Source: a virus
Strand: one strand, 5' to 3'
IMG/VR virus record: IMGVR_UViG_3300020470_000057
Coordinates: 1-39,660 of that record
Length of the DNA: 39,660 nt
The notes beneath the pieces are model-generated. The model was not told the DNA's origin and made no database searches. It saw only the letters and a list, made by a program, of their open reading frames with translations. Every line of letters starts with the position of its first letter. Position 1 is the stretch's first letter. A program made the position numbers and the translations under genes. Shown here one piece after another: positions 1-12,369 of the stretch.

Positions 1-446
1 CCAACCATTGAAGCATCCATTAAGAATGTAAATGGTTTAGATAAATCTTCTTTTAGATTATCTGTTGATACAAATGCACAATTGTTAAGGGCGGCGTATA
101 AACCTCGTTCTTCTGTGATTGGTGTTCCCATAGCCCATAGACCTCGGCCAGGTGGCAAAAACTTCATATTGAATATTCTGTCGTACATCTCTTGTGCCGA
201 CCTTTGAGCTTGCCACGCATTCCACCCTAAATGATGTGATTCTATCCATTTCTTCTGCATGTTGTAAGTACCTTCAACAACTCGTTGAACGGTTTCCCAC
301 CACATTTCGTTTTTCCCATCATCTTTAATTCTTGAATAAGTTCTCATATAAACAAGTTCACCCAATCCATTAAAACCGAATGGTGCTCGTTTTCTTTTAT
401 ATCCGTCTATAAAATTATCTGATAAACTAAATCTTTTGTATTCCAT
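1..446 (-). CDS. nrdJ: Class II (adenosylcobalamin-dependent) ribonucleoside-triphosphate reductase, N-terminal part (cut by window edge)
   Basis: NrdJ reduces ribonucleoside triphosphates to deoxyribonucleotides for phage DNA synthesis. The frame starts with ATG at 446 and stays open to the window edge, giving 148 complete codons. A PFGFNGLGE stretch lies near residues 22-30, FLPPGRGLWAMGT at 96-108 and NNCAFVST at 121-128. These match the N-terminal region of Lactobacillus leichmannii-type RTPR, and C123 aligns with its redox-active N-terminal cysteine. The start sits 14 bases after the methyltransferase stop, behind a GGAGTGACG ribosome site, so it is probably the next gene of the same operon. 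The radical-site cysteine and C-terminal redox cysteines lie outside the window. The family call is firm; only the completeness of the gene is unknown. Confidence 0.85.
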   Translation of the reverse strand, partial: MEYKRFSLSDNFIDGYKRKRAPFGFNGLGELVYMRTYSRIKDDGKNEMWWETVQRVVEGTYNMQKKWIESHHLGWNAWQAQRSAQEMYDRIFNMKFLPPGRGLWAMGTPITEERGLYAALNNCAFVSTDNLKEDLSKPFTFLMDASMV

Positions 447-460
447 CGTCACTCCTACTC

Positions 461-1528
461 CTATTTTTTAAAAACAAAGATTGGTTCATACTTATGACCT
501 TTACCCGCTATAGAAGACAAGGTTAATTTTAAGGTCTTTTCATATTTAAGTCCCAAATCTTTACATATTTTCATTGTTGCATTTTCTATATTTTTTCCAC
601 TACTCGTGTTGGCTATATTCATTAACATATAACCATTGTCTTTTAATCCACGATAGCAATTATTTATCGTATCATATAAAAACCCACTAATCCACCCATC
701 TTCAGTAGGATACTTCAGATAGCTTTGAGTGGGTTCGTTACTATATTTTTCCGTATCAAAATACGGAGGTGATGTAAAACATAAGTCGATTGAATTTGTT
801 TCAGGTTTAAAAACTTCACTGCCCGCTTTATGTAACTCAATTTCCGTATATAAATATTTAAAATCATTTTTTATCTTCAATAAACCTTCAAAAGTTTTTG
901 AAGAAGGTTCAGTTCCTATGTATTTTTTTATTCTTTTAGATGACAATGCTCCCAACAATCTTCCACCCCATCCAGAAGACATATCCCAAGTTACACCATC
1001 ACCACCATAAGTATCATATATATATTTAGCCGCTGTTGGTCTAAAATTTGATACTGATGATATACCATTATATATCTTTAAAGATTGTCTTATCCTATTC
1101 ATTGACATTCTACCATCTTCGTGTTTCACACACCAATCATAACATTTACTTATTGTCTTTTTAAATTCATCATCATCATTAAAAACATCCATAGGTGACA
1201 TCTTTGAATTTCCACATTGTACTTCCCAAGAATGAGGAAAGTAAGACCACGCTAATCTCAATGAATGCATTGTTTGTTCTATCCTATCATCATCTTTTAA
1301 TATTTCATCAGTATCAAACTTACAAAGTTGTTTCATATGTTTATGTTTTTCATCTTCTGTTATTGTATAATATGGAAATCCATATTTTCTAAAATATTTT
1401 AAAACTACTTCGACACAATAATCTTTTTCGTGTTTACCAACATTATGAGTCACTTCAGAAAAATCTAATTCATTTTGTTCGTAATCAAAAAAGTTTCCTA
1501 ATACTTTATGGTCTACTTGTAATTTCAT
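461..1528 (-). CDS. SPPY-type DNA methyltransferase (N4-cytosine or N6-adenine)
   Basis: Predicted S-adenosylmethionine-dependent methyltransferase acting on an exocyclic amino group of DNA. In the 355-residue product starting at 1528, the SAM-binding motif I region is around residues 182-194 (DMSSGWGGRLLGA) and catalytic motif IV is SPPYFDTEKYS at 253-263. The first 170 residues could hold target recognition, since little follows motif IV. The open frame extends upstream to 1600, but that would overlap the DUF262 gene by about 70 bases. ATG 1528 lies one base past that gene's stop and suits translational coupling, although its ribosome site is weak. The target base is not predictable: SPPY is commoner in N4-cytosine enzymes. 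Possible roles are self-protection of phage DNA or half of a restriction-modification pair. Confidence 0.75.
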   Translation of the reverse strand: MKLQVDHKVLGNFFDYEQNELDFSEVTHNVGKHEKDYCVEVVLKYFRKYGFPYYTITEDEKHKHMKQLCKFDTDEILKDDDRIEQTMHSLRLAWSYFPHSWEVQCGNSKMSPMDVFNDDDEFKKTISKCYDWCVKHEDGRMSMNRIRQSLKIYNGISSVSNFRPTAAKYIYDTYGGDGVTWDMSSGWGGRLLGALSSKRIKKYIGTEPSSKTFEGLLKIKNDFKYLYTEIELHKAGSEVFKPETNSIDLCFTSPPYFDTEKYSNEPTQSYLKYPTEDGWISGFLYDTINNCYRGLKDNGYMLMNIANTSSGKNIENATMKICKDLGLKYEKTLKLTLSSIAGKGHKYEPIFVFKK

Positions 1529-1529
1529 A

Positions 1530-2930
1530 TTATACTTTATCAGATTTCCACGAATTATATTCAGGTGTTGAAAATTCTTGATTAATAAGTTCATCCGCAT
1601 TTTTATTTTTTCTTAAAGAACCAATATGTTCAATCACAGATATTCTTGAATCAATACATTCAAGTAATGATAGTGGTTCTTCTCGATATGATGTCTTTTC
1701 CAATTCTGAATCTTTCATATTATCATTCTGAAACCATTTACCTTTTATTTTACCATTCACTCTTAATTTAGGTTTATATCCATGATGTTTAAATAATGAA
1801 ACTCTATCATACCAATCCTTTTGAGTTCTTGGAGTAGCCTCATTACACACTTTACTTGGACAATAAGAATATACTTCAACTTTACATAATTCCAATATAC
1901 TTTTTTTGACACTATCTGTAGCCTTATGTCTAATCATATCAGAGAATGAATACTGATGTTTACCTTTAGTATAATAGATTGTATCATCAGACGCCATTAG
2001 ATGAAACCATTCAGTAAAATCTTTAACAAATGTTTTCCATTTATTTATTTTTATTTCTTTTCTTCTCATCCAATCCAATGTAAAAAGAACAACATAATAA
2101 AAACCTTTACCTAATTGTTTAGTCTCTCCAAGTTTATTATATTCTTTAAAAAATTTATTTATCAATGTCATATTTGATAACCAATTTTTTACATCACTTG
2201 GTTTTTCTGACCTATAATCATTGTCAAGTTTATCATCTAATTTATCACCTAAACTTTCATATTTAGTGTACGCATATGTTTTCGCAATAAGTTCATCATC
2301 TTCCATTCTTTCTAATTTAAGACCTTTTATTCTGTTGAATATGGAAAAATATTTTTCGGTTACTTCTCTAACTTTATCACTTAAATAACCATATATTCCT
2401 GTTCTTATCTCTTGTCTATTTTGTGGATTACCATAGGCCATTCTAACATAAATCTCGTGCATTGTGGCTCTATCAACACTTTCAATAATAACAATGTTTA
2501 CTCTTCTGTTACTTCTAAACATTGGAAACATTTGCCAAAATAAATAAGTAGCATCACTTCTGTTACCACCTTCGACAGTAATATATGTATATCCCTTATC
2601 GTGATAATTTTGGTAATATTCTATATCTTTTGTTAATCCTTTTTTTATACAATATTCTAAACAACTTTTAATGTGAACATATATTAAAGGATTTAAATTT
2701 AAAAAAGCTTGTATTGATTCAAACCAATGAACAATTAGGTTTTTACCCCAATTATCCCTTCGATTAAATTTCTTACACCTCACTATTTTTTTATCGTAAA
2801 TTCTATTTTTCCAATTACTAATTGTTCTACTAATAATCGGAGGTAATTTTGTTAGAGATGAATGCACATTATTCATCTGGTCTTCTATTTCAGCTCTTTT
2901 AATAATGTTATCTAAAAAATCTTTTATCAT
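1530..2930 (-). CDS. DUF262 (GmrS/SspE-like, ParB-fold) domain protein
   Basis: This 466-residue protein carries two marks of the DUF262 family. One is EGGNRSDATYLFWQ near residues 119-132, in the place of the usual DGQQR nucleotide-binding motif. The other is YVRMAYGNPQNRQEIRTGIY near 160-180, which resembles the family's conserved F-x2-LN-x-G-x-PL-x2-QE-x-R-N stretch. DUF262 proteins include the GmrS subunit of type IV restriction enzymes and SspE of phosphorothioate defence, which use NTP-dependent DNA cleavage or nicking. The motif variant (EGGNR) makes NTPase activity uncertain. I see no clear HNH or DUF1524 nuclease domain in the C-terminal half, which contains scattered Cys and His residues. 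It sits one base upstream of a DNA methyltransferase gene, so the two may work together. Its ATG overlaps the stop of the preceding small ORF (TAATG). Confidence 0.6.
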   Translation of the reverse strand: MIKDFLDNIIKRAEIEDQMNNVHSSLTKLPPIISRTISNWKNRIYDKKIVRCKKFNRRDNWGKNLIVHWFESIQAFLNLNPLIYVHIKSCLEYCIKKGLTKDIEYYQNYHDKGYTYITVEGGNRSDATYLFWQMFPMFRSNRRVNIVIIESVDRATMHEIYVRMAYGNPQNRQEIRTGIYGYLSDKVREVTEKYFSIFNRIKGLKLERMEDDELIAKTYAYTKYESLGDKLDDKLDNDYRSEKPSDVKNWLSNMTLINKFFKEYNKLGETKQLGKGFYYVVLFTLDWMRRKEIKINKWKTFVKDFTEWFHLMASDDTIYYTKGKHQYSFSDMIRHKATDSVKKSILELCKVEVYSYCPSKVCNEATPRTQKDWYDRVSLFKHHGYKPKLRVNGKIKGKWFQNDNMKDSELEKTSYREEPLSLLECIDSRISVIEHIGSLRKNKNADELINQEFSTPEYNSWKSDKV

Positions 2931-3055
2931 TAATCATCCTCTCCATTATGCCAATATTTATTTTTATCATCATTCTCACCCGCAGTAGTTGTTATTGTCC
3001 AATAACCTTCTGGTACTTCTATATGCGTTGGATAATTTGTATCCCAATAACTCAT
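2930..3055 (-). CDS. Small acidic protein, 41 residues, unknown
   Basis: A 41-codon frame starts with ATG at 3055 and ends with TAA at 2930-2932. Both ends overlap the neighbouring genes in a TAATG arrangement, so it fills the gap between the 61-residue basic protein and the DUF262 gene exactly. That tight packing is the main reason to believe it is coding. The product starts MSYWDTNYPTHIEVPEG and ends in an acidic stretch (HNGEDD). It is rich in Trp and Tyr and has no recognisable motif. Function unknown. Confidence 0.6.
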   Translation of the reverse strand: MSYWDTNYPTHIEVPEGYWTITTTAGENDDKNKYWHNGEDD

Positions 3056-3240
3056 TATTCATCCTCCCAGGCTTCGTTTATATTCGGTGTAGATTTATTA
3101 TCACCTCTATATCTACCATCTTTTGTTCTTGCTCTTTTTCTTTTCTTTGGTTTTGGTTTTTCTTCTACTCCAAAAACAAGTTCGTTAAACCATTGAACGA
3201 ACTCTTGAAATCTTTGTAATTCAGTTTTTTCTTTGGCCAT
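3055..3240 (-). CDS. Small basic protein, 61 residues, unknown
   Basis: This short gene is embedded in a run of overlapping genes: its ATG overlaps the helicase stop and its stop overlaps the next ATG, both as TAATG. Residues 1-25 look like an amphipathic helix (LQRFQEFVQWFNELVFGV). A very basic stretch follows (KPKPKKRKRARTK), and the tail is acidic (NEAWEDE). The charge pattern suggests binding to nucleic acid or to a replication protein. Its position next to the helicase would fit an accessory factor, but that is inference. Not recognised. Confidence 0.6.
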   Translation of the reverse strand: MAKEKTELQRFQEFVQWFNELVFGVEEKPKPKKRKRARTKDGRYRGDNKSTPNINEAWEDE

Positions 3241-4598
3241 TATTCGTCTCCCATTAAATCTTCATATTTACTTGATAACATTTTTTTCATTAAGTTATCT
3301 CTGTTATCTATTTTTGTTTGTGTTTCTTTACCATCAACAGTATTCGCTTCATATATTTCTACCTGACCTGTATTTGTATTTACTTTTGCTGGATAAGTTA
3401 ACCCATCAGGTCCGAATCTATTCTTAATAACATGAAATCTACCTGTGTTTCCAATCTTATCTTCCACTTTTCTACTCAATGATACTACAAAATCTGCAGT
3501 CATCACTTTCTGATATGATTCAGCAACCTTTGTAGCCTCAATCACATCTTCGTCAAGAGCACTTCTATTAGCTTGTGAAGCTGTCCATATCGGAACATCA
3601 AACTCACCGGCAAGTCCTCTCATATCTTCATAAATATTTCCAAGTGCGTGTCTTACTTCTCTACTATTACTTGTATCTCTTAATATGTCACCATAATCTA
3701 CAACCACCATATCAAAATCTTTACCCATAGTTCTCAACTTCTGTAAGTGAGCTCCCAATGTATGAACTGATGCAGTTTTTGTTGGAAAATACTTTACAAC
3801 TAACTCACCTTCAACTTTTTCAACTGCCGCTTTTACATCGTCTATATGATACTTTAAATTCTGGTTAGCTAAACCTGTTAATACAGAATCATATCTTAAA
3901 CCAACATATGATTCATTTAACTCTAATGTATAGTGAACCACATTAGTTCCCCTTTTCATCGCACCAGCTCCAAGTGCACATAATATCCAAGTCTTACCTA
4001 TACCAGCAGGTGCAACAATTACACCAAGTTCCCCACCAGCCAAACCACCTTGTGTCAAATCATTTAATACATCCCAAGGCGTTTCAACAGTATCTCTGGC
4101 CATTTCAGAATACCTCACATCTATGTCTTCTGCATATTCGTGACCTAAATCTCTTTCAGTACCCGCTTTCATAGCTTCATCCATAAGATTTTTTATAGCT
4201 TCATAATCACCATTAGACTCTAATATATCAACTGATTTTATAATTGCATTTTTTAATGTTTGATTTTTAAAGAAGTCAATACATTTATCCTGTACAAAAT
4301 CTAAATCAGGTGCTTCCATATATCTATAAACTTCTTTTAATGATTCTACCACAGTAGTTTTTAATACATCATTTGTTACTTCATTTACTTTTACTTTAAA
4401 TACATCAAGTGTAATTGGTTTTTTATATTCGTTAAAATATTTTTTACATTCCTTTACAATCCATTTCAATGAATCATTGTCATAATGACTTTCATCAAGT
4501 ATATCAATAATTTGTTCAATGAAATTAGGTTTTGTCATTAAACAAACTACTGACTTTATCTGAAAGTTATGACCAAACTCTTGTAATCTATCTGTCAC
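3240..4598 (-). CDS. gp41: DnaB-like replicative DNA helicase (T4 gp41 type)
   Basis: Hexameric 5'-3' helicase that unwinds DNA at the replication fork. The Walker A motif APAGIGKT is at residues 196-203, and a Walker B-like MVVVDYGDIL lies near 285-295. A SQANRSA sequence follows, typical of DnaB/RecA-fold helicases, with a late-motif region at FHVIKNRFGPDGL. The N-terminal 150 residues are helical, as in the DnaB family. The start codon is GTG at 4598, supported by AGGGGG six bases upstream; it overlaps the FEN-type nuclease gene by 11 bases. At 452 residues it is close to T4 gp41 (475). It lies downstream of UvsX and the nuclease, forming a replication/recombination operon. No primase gene is visible in the window. 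Confidence 0.88.
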   Translation of the reverse strand: MTDRLQEFGHNFQIKSVVCLMTKPNFIEQIIDILDESHYDNDSLKWIVKECKKYFNEYKKPITLDVFKVKVNEVTNDVLKTTVVESLKEVYRYMEAPDLDFVQDKCIDFFKNQTLKNAIIKSVDILESNGDYEAIKNLMDEAMKAGTERDLGHEYAEDIDVRYSEMARDTVETPWDVLNDLTQGGLAGGELGVIVAPAGIGKTWILCALGAGAMKRGTNVVHYTLELNESYVGLRYDSVLTGLANQNLKYHIDDVKAAVEKVEGELVVKYFPTKTASVHTLGAHLQKLRTMGKDFDMVVVDYGDILRDTSNSREVRHALGNIYEDMRGLAGEFDVPIWTASQANRSALDEDVIEATKVAESYQKVMTADFVVSLSRKVEDKIGNTGRFHVIKNRFGPDGLTYPAKVNTNTGQVEIYEANTVDGKETQTKIDNRDNLMKKMLSSKYEDLMGDE

Positions 4599-11106: not shown

Positions 11107-12369
11107 TTATAACCTTTTTGTAATGTTGTCTAATTTACTATAAGTATAACCCATTTTAATTTTTGTTAAATAATTACCTTCTTCTAAAATAGTTTTTACT
11201 TCACTCAATGTATTTACTCCATCGTTTTTACTGAAATCAAACAGAAAACTATCGTAACCATACAAAATTAAATTAGTTTGTTTATCTTCTAAATATTCTT
11301 TTAACTTTAATATTTTTGTAATATTTTTTTCAGTTTCCAAAGATTGTATTAAATAATTAAATAATTTATTTTTATTCATACTATCATTATTGGATTTTGT
11401 TATTTTCCTATTATAAATATCAGTTAATATATAATTACGGTCATTAAATTCACTCCATTTTAAATTAATAAAATCTTGTACTTTATCAAAAAATGGAACT
11501 TTTTTTCTAATTTCTTCTGTTATACCACCATAAAGTAGTTTAAATGATATTTGTTTAGATTCTTCATATGTTGAACCATAAAAATCTGCAAGATGTTGAT
11601 GTACTGATTCATCGTCAAATTTATAGTCAACCAACTCACCGATAAGTCTTAAATGATAAGCATCAAAATCATATTCTACAAGAGTATCATTTTGAGGTAT
11701 AAAAACACTCCTTTTTTCAGGTGGTAGTGCTGCAAAGTTAACACTTCCAAATGAATTACTTGGACGACCAGTCGATGTCCATAGATTATATTGTGAATAT
11801 AATTTCCCATTAGATATATGTTTTCTTACTCTTTCATCAAATACATCACATACATCATCTGTAATTTTTATTCCGTGTTTTTCTATTGAAGAAAAAGCTT
11901 CTATTACATCACTATGATATTTACTATCATTTACTTGACTAAATGATTTTATCATCTCATCAAAAACTTTATCACAATACTCTTTATGTTTAGTAAATGG
12001 TATGATTTCATTAAGTTTTTTTGCATTATAATACTTACTATGGAAAAAATCATATGCATTTACTCTGATATTTTCTAAATCCAAAGGTATATTTTTGTCC
12101 CACCAATGTAAATAATTGACATCAATTAATCTCGTATTTGGAAATATATGTTTTATTTTTTTAACATCAGGTGTAATATAAAAATTATTGTGGTCATCTA
12201 CAATCTCATCAATCGATTCTTTGTCTCCACAATCAGGATGATTTATACATATCATTCTACCTTCAGAATCTCCCACATGCCTTACATATAGTAGGGATAA
12301 ATCATTATCTTTATGTAACGGATGTAAAAATGCATCCGAAAATATTGGAATTAAAATTTTCATAACCAT
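11107..12369 (-). CDS. Short family A DNA polymerase-like protein
   Basis: The 420 residues contain the polymerase motifs of the Pol I family in order. LWTSTGRPSNS is at 196-206. Motif A is YDFDAYHLRLIGEL at 233-246 with D234. Motif B is SKQISFKLLYGG at 271-282, with K272 and YG retained. A NYLIQSLETE stretch at 338-347 resembles the family's N-x2-IQG-x-A-x-D segment. Motif C is GYDSFLFDF at 371-379, where catalytic D373 remains but the usual His before it is Tyr and the Glu after it is Ser. The N-terminal 190 residues show no clear 3'-5' exonuclease motifs. T4 relatives replicate with a family B enzyme, so a repair or accessory role is likely. ATG codons at 12369 and 12363 are both possible; the promoter position favours 12363. 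Confidence 0.65.
   Translation of the reverse strand: MVMKILIPIFSDAFLHPLHKDNDLSLLYVRHVGDSEGRMICINHPDCGDKESIDEIVDDHNNFYITPDVKKIKHIFPNTRLIDVNYLHWWDKNIPLDLENIRVNAYDFFHSKYYNAKKLNEIIPFTKHKEYCDKVFDEMIKSFSQVNDSKYHSDVIEAFSSIEKHGIKITDDVCDVFDERVRKHISNGKLYSQYNLWTSTGRPSNSFGSVNFAALPPEKRSVFIPQNDTLVEYDFDAYHLRLIGELVDYKFDDESVHQHLADFYGSTYEESKQISFKLLYGGITEEIRKKVPFFDKVQDFINLKWSEFNDRNYILTDIYNRKITKSNNDSMNKNKLFNYLIQSLETEKNITKILKLKEYLEDKQTNLILYGYDSFLFDFSKNDGVNTLSEVKTILEEGNYLTKIKMGYTYSKLDNITKRL

Follow-up and report, generated by a model that had tools for sequence, protein, structure and literature searches.

A divergent DUF262-related gene, probably not coupled to the DNA methyltransferase gene beside it, in the replication cluster of a T4-like phage

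The window analyzed here, 39,660 bases in length, is the whole of IMG/VR virus record IMGVR_UViG_3300020470_000057 and probably represents a fragment of a phage genome. Its gene content (a DnaB-like helicase, an exonuclease, UvsX, a gp32-like protein and a gp23-like capsid protein) assigns the phage to distant T4-like phages, probably of marine habitat. The closest relatives of the gp23-like capsid protein are those of an uncultured 484-kb phage (54.5%), Microcystis phage Mel-JY01 (54%) and Flavobacterium phages immuto (52%). A 420-aa ORF at 11107-12369 resembles by eye the core of a family-A DNA polymerase (STGRPSNSFGSVNFAALP, VEYDFDAYHLRLIGEL) and is without a Pfam match. The genes studied here run in the order helicase, 61-aa ORF, 41-aa ORF, DUF262 gene, methyltransferase gene and ribonucleotide reductase gene:

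3240..4598, minus strand: DnaB-like replicative helicase, the upstream border of a cargo slot
3055..3240, minus strand: small basic 61-aa ORF in the interval between helicase and cargo
2930..3055, minus strand: 41-aa ORF (VEVPEGYW type), with a TAATG overlap with the DUF262 start
1530..2930, minus strand: 466-aa divergent stand-alone DUF262-related protein with a putative ParB/Srx-type NTP-binding fold; DUF1524/HNH not found
461..1528, minus strand: 355-aa SPPY DNA methyltransferase (N6_N4_Mtase)
1..446, minus strand: start of a ribonucleotide reductase (partial, start codon approximate), the downstream border of the slot

The stop codon of the DUF262 gene (TAA, 1532-1530) lies exactly one base from the methyltransferase start codon (ATG, 1528-1526), as reported by the first-pass annotation, which had read the two genes as coupled. 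Because genes are closely packed throughout this operon, with overlaps at helicase/exonuclease, exonuclease/UvsX and the 41-aa ORF/DUF262 start, this spacing says little about coupling. The ATG at 1528-1526 gives a methyltransferase of 355 aa, and an in-frame ATG further upstream would extend it to 379 aa.

The identity of the downstream gene as an SPPY methyltransferase was upheld by a PF01555 match of 27.7 bits (cut-off 26.7) and by two motifs:

947..988, minus strand: WDMSSGWGGRLLGA, AdoMet-binding motif I, methyltransferase residues 181-194
758..778, minus strand: FTSPPYF, catalytic motif IV, methyltransferase residues 251-257

The core residues of WDMSSGWGG and FTSPPYF are invariant across six aligned proteins, and distant PDB matches include the DNA cytosine-N4 methyltransferases 8s9m/8s9n. 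The orphan N4-cytosine-type enzyme of Vibrio phage 2.058 (AUS02009.1) is 40% identical over 89%, with the same motif I and TSPPYF; it differs from the window enzyme in having no DUF262 neighbor, and its genome contains no PF03235 match. Specificity for N4-cytosine is probable, as judged solely from TSPPY and the annotation of the Vibrio phage. A UvsX-exonuclease-helicase-reductase cluster surrounds the methyltransferase gene in about half of the loci, and 11 loci, including the one designated L103, have a tight helicase-methyltransferase-reductase order. The enzyme is assigned as a resident orphan phage methyltransferase belonging to the helicase/ribonucleotide-reductase replication cluster. 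Two uncultured phages of ~484-485 kb (L004:4102-7791 and L005:4969-6903) encode the methyltransferase as a fusion, its long N-terminal extensions having a homing-endonuclease- or Vsr-like look. A second SPPY methyltransferase of ~540 aa, similar in its C-terminal part to the resident one, is encoded directly upstream of it at L152:3353-4978 and likewise in L140, L142, L144, L147, L153, L155 and L156.

The 466-aa protein goes unrecognized by Pfam, PHROG, NCBIfam and PADLOC models of its kind. PF03235 (DUF262/GmrSD_N) gave no match to it at E<=10, none in a search of the genome and none at E<=5 to its homologue on contig L295; a RuBisCO_small match (17.4 bits, under the cut-off) was dismissed as chance. 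DUF262 proteins were represented by a reference set of our own, consisting of phage and plasmid proteins (alignments A3 and A4) and then ~70 bacterial proteins (L200-L279). Against a profile of 75 DUF262 proteins, the 466-aa protein scored 20.4 bits, compared to 8.5 for the best of ~1,800 shuffles and 5.1 for the best other protein of the window. An earlier profile gave 10.9 bits, a score that none of 1,742 scored shuffles equaled or bettered (best 10.4). In a profile search of 4,285 ORFs from related loci, the protein was recovered with an E value of 4.2e-5, while the best non-DUF262 ORF reached 8.3 bits (E 0.21), and hhalign against DUF262 alignments returned P values of 6.4e-4 and 1.5e-4, or 2.8e-4 with the L295 homologue added. 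Based on the profile, shuffle and hhalign scores, the likeness to DUF262 exceeds chance, and the relationship proposed in the first-pass annotation almost certainly holds.

Structure prediction was in line with this assignment. The pLDDT of the AlphaFold model was 35 with the single sequence and rose to 63 when the DUF262 alignment was supplied; among known structures, the guided model matched BrxU best (7p9k, Z 6.2; next 2.5). As DUF262 sequences guided the model, the match is partly circular and is taken as supportive of DUF262 identity. Foldseek searches of PDB and BFVD with the model returned no significant match, the top BFVD row being a Catovirus GmrSD_N protein at E 2.9.

The L295 homologue, 65% identical, is the sole relative found. 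The pattern VEGGNR-x6-F matched 33 loci and pointed to a true relative in one of them, L295; a further scan with the window and L295 pair returned the L295 contig again and no other relative. All 12 matches of a two-motif gapped pattern search were chance. Nothing meaningful was obtained by tblastn of phages with the 466-aa protein, whole or as its two parts, or of phages and plasmids with the L295 homologue; peptides of the window protein, scanned against IMG/VR and GTDB genomes, gave no hit, and a PDB sequence search with that protein gave nothing relevant. The pN/pS ratio was 0.34 for the DUF262 gene (window versus L295) and 0.35 for the methyltransferase gene. Such a ratio indicates purifying selection on the DUF262 gene; with the ORF also intact, pseudogene status was rejected.

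Six segments of the protein were distinguished:

2748..2768, minus strand: FNRRDNW, residues 55-61, the DUF262 'YQR...W' motif with Q replaced by N (FQRRDNW in L295)
2715..2720, minus strand: ES, residues 71-72, the invariant 'ES' of the DUF262 FIES motif (invariant columns E71 and S72)
2559..2573, minus strand: EGGNR, residues 120-124, at the position of the DGQQR nucleotide motif
2403..2450, minus strand: YVRMAYGNPQNRQEIR, residues 161-176, the DUF262 'FxRxN...ExR' motif with N replaced by A
2259..2309, minus strand: RMEDDELIAKTYAYTKY, residues 208-224, the 'R.E..ELvlRFFAY' segment of long DUF262 proteins
1641..1925, minus strand: extra segment, residues ~336-430, unaligned with other DUF262 proteins and conserved in L295

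The DUF262 landmarks are thus in register, as F-N-R...W, E-S, V-E-G-G-N-R and Y-x-R...Q-E-x-R. Whichever of three MAFFT settings was used, 38-40 of 40 DUF262 homologues had their YQR...W, DGxQR and FxRxN motifs aligned with FNR...W, EGGNR and YVRMA; this register comes from the 40-homologue subset (A8), and EGGNR is misplaced in a 53-homologue MAFFT alignment (A7). Near-invariant polar residues are replaced (Q to N, D to E, Q to N and N to A), whereas the two arginines, W, ES and G are retained. The first-pass annotation had correctly read EGGNR in place of DGQQR. The exact DGQQR is absent from both the window protein and L295, with G and R alone kept. In L295, EGGNR is unchanged within TVEGGNRSDATY and the first motif is FQR, so that R and W of the QR-then-W feature are kept in both proteins and Q is N in the window and Q in L295. 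Since EGGNR is identical in the two, it is a fixed trait of this small subfamily. As no nuclease half was found and DGQQR is not retained exactly, the 466-aa protein is classified by its sequence as a divergent DUF262 relative and not as GmrSD, BrxU or SspE.

The genomic context of the two nearest relatives separates the two genes. The L295 locus has the same borders as the window, in the order helicase, 46-aa ORF, DUF262 gene, small ORF and reductase; no methyltransferase gene is present at the locus or in the whole 7.5-kb record. The L295 helicase is split by a frameshift (L295:5577-6966), probably an assembly error. L103 has the reciprocal arrangement of helicase (83% protein identity), small ORF, methyltransferase (65% identical) and reductase, with no DUF262 gene beside the methyltransferase and ~100 bp in place of 1,747 bp of the window. 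Small ORFs resembling the 41-aa ORF by eye occur in L103 and, on the opposite side of the DUF262 gene, in L295. Among 80 further IMG/VR methyltransferase loci, none had a DUF262 gene within the fetched flanks, many of these loci being short. Because relatives have either gene without the other, the two very probably do not form a matched restriction pair, and the DUF262 gene is likely not coupled to its neighbor; its independence rests on a single contig, as the one close relative found is on a 7.5-kb fragment.

The interval between helicase and resident methyltransferase is occupied in some relatives by other DNA methyltransferases: an N6_N4_Mtase at L167:3565-4725 (L168 has the same arrangement), a split N6_N4-type enzyme at L175:3328-5004 and a D12 adenine methyltransferase at L176:4255-4995. 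For this reason, the gap is regarded as a cargo slot whose common theme is DNA modification. The DnaB-like helicases of L175 and L176 have an apparent intein interruption, the additional segments having FYANDVYSHN or a similar string at their end. One conceivable role of the DUF262 protein is that of a nucleotide-responsive regulator of phage replication or dNTP synthesis. DUF262 is an NTP-binding fold (PMC4619093), and in both the window and L295 the gene lies between those of the replicative helicase and ribonucleotide reductase, as such a role would suggest; however, it is absent from L103 and ten other tight helicase-methyltransferase-reductase loci, and unrelated cargo fills the slot in relatives, making a regulator unlikely.

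No nuclease domain was detected in the 466-aa protein by Pfam (E<=10) or PDB sequence search. DUF1524 gave no Pfam match to it at E<=10 or to the L295 homologue at E<=5, and no complete HNH motif set could be recognized in it by eye. These results weigh on the earlier proposal of a restriction-modification-like pair, with phage DNA marked by the methyltransferase and DNA whose mark is absent or different attacked by the DUF262 protein. The genes are indeed adjacent and one base apart, the slot holds other DNA methyltransferases in relatives and other DUF262 proteins read DNA modifications (PMC9646914, PMC10952713). Yet a functional pair is largely refuted by the separability of the genes in L295 and L103 and by their absence together from the 80 further loci, and rarity of co-occurrence had been named beforehand as the outcome that would speak against pairing. 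The close packing is general in the operon and no nuclease was found. Moreover, those GmrSD/BrxU-type DUF262 enzymes that have been studied cut modified DNA and not unmodified DNA (PMC10952713), which runs counter to the suggested attack on unmodified DNA. We consider the pair very improbable.

Only marginally better is the prospect that the gene is mobile ParB-like nuclease cargo that has entered between conserved genes and resembles free-standing homing endonucleases. It would account for presence or absence at one intergenic site among related phages; ParB/Srx-fold proteins include some nucleases (PMC4619093), and one phage DUF262 protein is annotated as an HNH endonuclease. In the 466-aa protein, however, no HNH, GIY-YIG or LAGLIDADG match was found, and methyltransferases also enter the slot, as expected for cargo, so that we regard a mobile nuclease as quite improbable.

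Among DUF262 proteins without DUF1524 (L200-L279), the next gene downstream encodes a MAE_28990/RiboL-PSP-type HEPN protein in 61 of 62 cases, often overlapping; the count covers only proteins with an intact adjacent downstream ORF, in a set seeded with, and biased to, the DUF262-HEPN type. The pair also occurs in the temperate phages P2_4B2 (L196) and Terrisporobacter TVCOM_ph1 (L198), and in a Vibrio phage (L195) the DUF262 gene is followed by a gene annotated as RiboL-PSP-HEPN. Linkage of RiboL-PSP-HEPN to ParB in operons has been described (PMC3710099). No HEPN partner gene is adjacent in L295 or in the window, where the neighbors are the 41-aa and 61-aa ORFs, the methyltransferase and the helicase. 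A HEPN domain within the C-terminal part of the 466-aa protein was also rejected, as neither of its R-x5-H strings (RVSLFKH and RISVIEH) is intact in L295 (DRIILYKY and SKICVIEH). The conserved segment at residues ~336-430 could contain an effector activity that escaped detection. On this basis, the protein might be a weapon aimed at rival phages or at the DNA of the host, sensing modification through DUF262 and acting through the segment as a new effector, for superinfection exclusion by one gene. The segment is conserved in L295 and absent from other DUF262 proteins, and DUF262 proteins of temperate phages adjoin HEPN RNase genes as defense-like pairs, both in keeping with a weapon; against it are the missing nuclease signature (Pfam and PDB sequence search) and the absence of an adjacent HEPN or other partner gene. 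A weapon is improbable in our view.

The best overall explanation, to which we assign a probability of roughly 38%, is that of two independent neighbors: a resident methyltransferase and a nuclease-less DUF262 cargo acting against host restriction. The methyltransferase would mark phage DNA, most likely for escape from host restriction. The DUF262 gene would be optional cargo of the helicase-reductase slot, where relatives carry other DNA methyltransferases, and its product would be made together with the replication genes. The protein, lacking a nuclease, is expected to fold like the NTP-binding N-terminal half of GmrSD/BrxU/SspE, with changes in its nucleotide pocket, and to bind nucleotide. 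It may then interfere with a host DUF262-type restriction enzyme, a target and direction of effect that we infer, for example by hetero-dimerizing with the host enzyme or by competing for modified DNA. Such interference is plausible because the HNH-less GmrS1 works jointly with GmrSD2 (PMC12373910), T4 encodes three proteins that inhibit GmrSD enzymes (PMC12373910) and BrxU forms dimers (PMC10952713). For a nuclease-less, phage-borne DUF262 protein in a DNA-modification slot, an anti-restriction gene is the simplest reading, and by analogy the 466-aa protein is tentatively viewed as an accessory decoy or anti-restriction protein against host GmrSD/BrxU-type enzymes. A more specific version, that a nuclease-less GmrS-like host sensor, its EGGNR pocket fixed, was domesticated by a lytic phage and acts on DUF262-type restriction as a dominant-negative decoy, is doubtful.

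DUF262 proteins are widespread sensors in anti-phage defense, and DUF262 genes of unknown use are present in many phages. Together with L295, the 466-aa protein defines a DUF262 subfamily that current family models do not reach; its nucleotide motif is altered yet conserved, and no nuclease could be detected in it. It shares with the type IV enzymes GmrSD/BrxU (DUF262 plus DUF1524) a homologous N-terminal DUF262 part, in which YQR..W, DGxQR and FxxxN are in register; it differs in the four replacements at these motifs, in carrying additional segments ahead of EGGNR and close to the C terminus and in having no detected DUF1524/HNH half. In SspE, YQR (Y30 and Q31) senses the phosphorothioate mark and D96GQQR100 is the NTP site, with R100 needed for GTPase activity (PMC9646914). 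FNR and EGGNR of the 466-aa protein correspond to these motifs and keep the arginine, but the motif is altered, and both the C-terminal nickase and nearby Ssp modification genes are missing. The long DUF262 proteins without DUF1524 (~380 aa) of the DUF262 plus RiboL-PSP/MAE_28990-type HEPN operons in bacteria and temperate phages give the strongest profile match; unlike the window and L295, those operons have the HEPN gene downstream. GmrS1 of the E. coli ECOR17 GmrS1/GmrSD2 system is likewise a DUF262 protein without HNH and works with a DUF262-HNH partner (PMC12373910), but it is bacterial and adjoins that partner, whereas the 466-aa protein is phage-borne and has no partner gene. The known GmrSD inhibitors Ip1-Ip3 are unrelated to the immune family, whereas a decoy of the kind considered here would be a homologue of it; should the 466-aa protein block type IV restriction by the host, it would directly exemplify a defense-protein homologue used by a phage as counter-defense.
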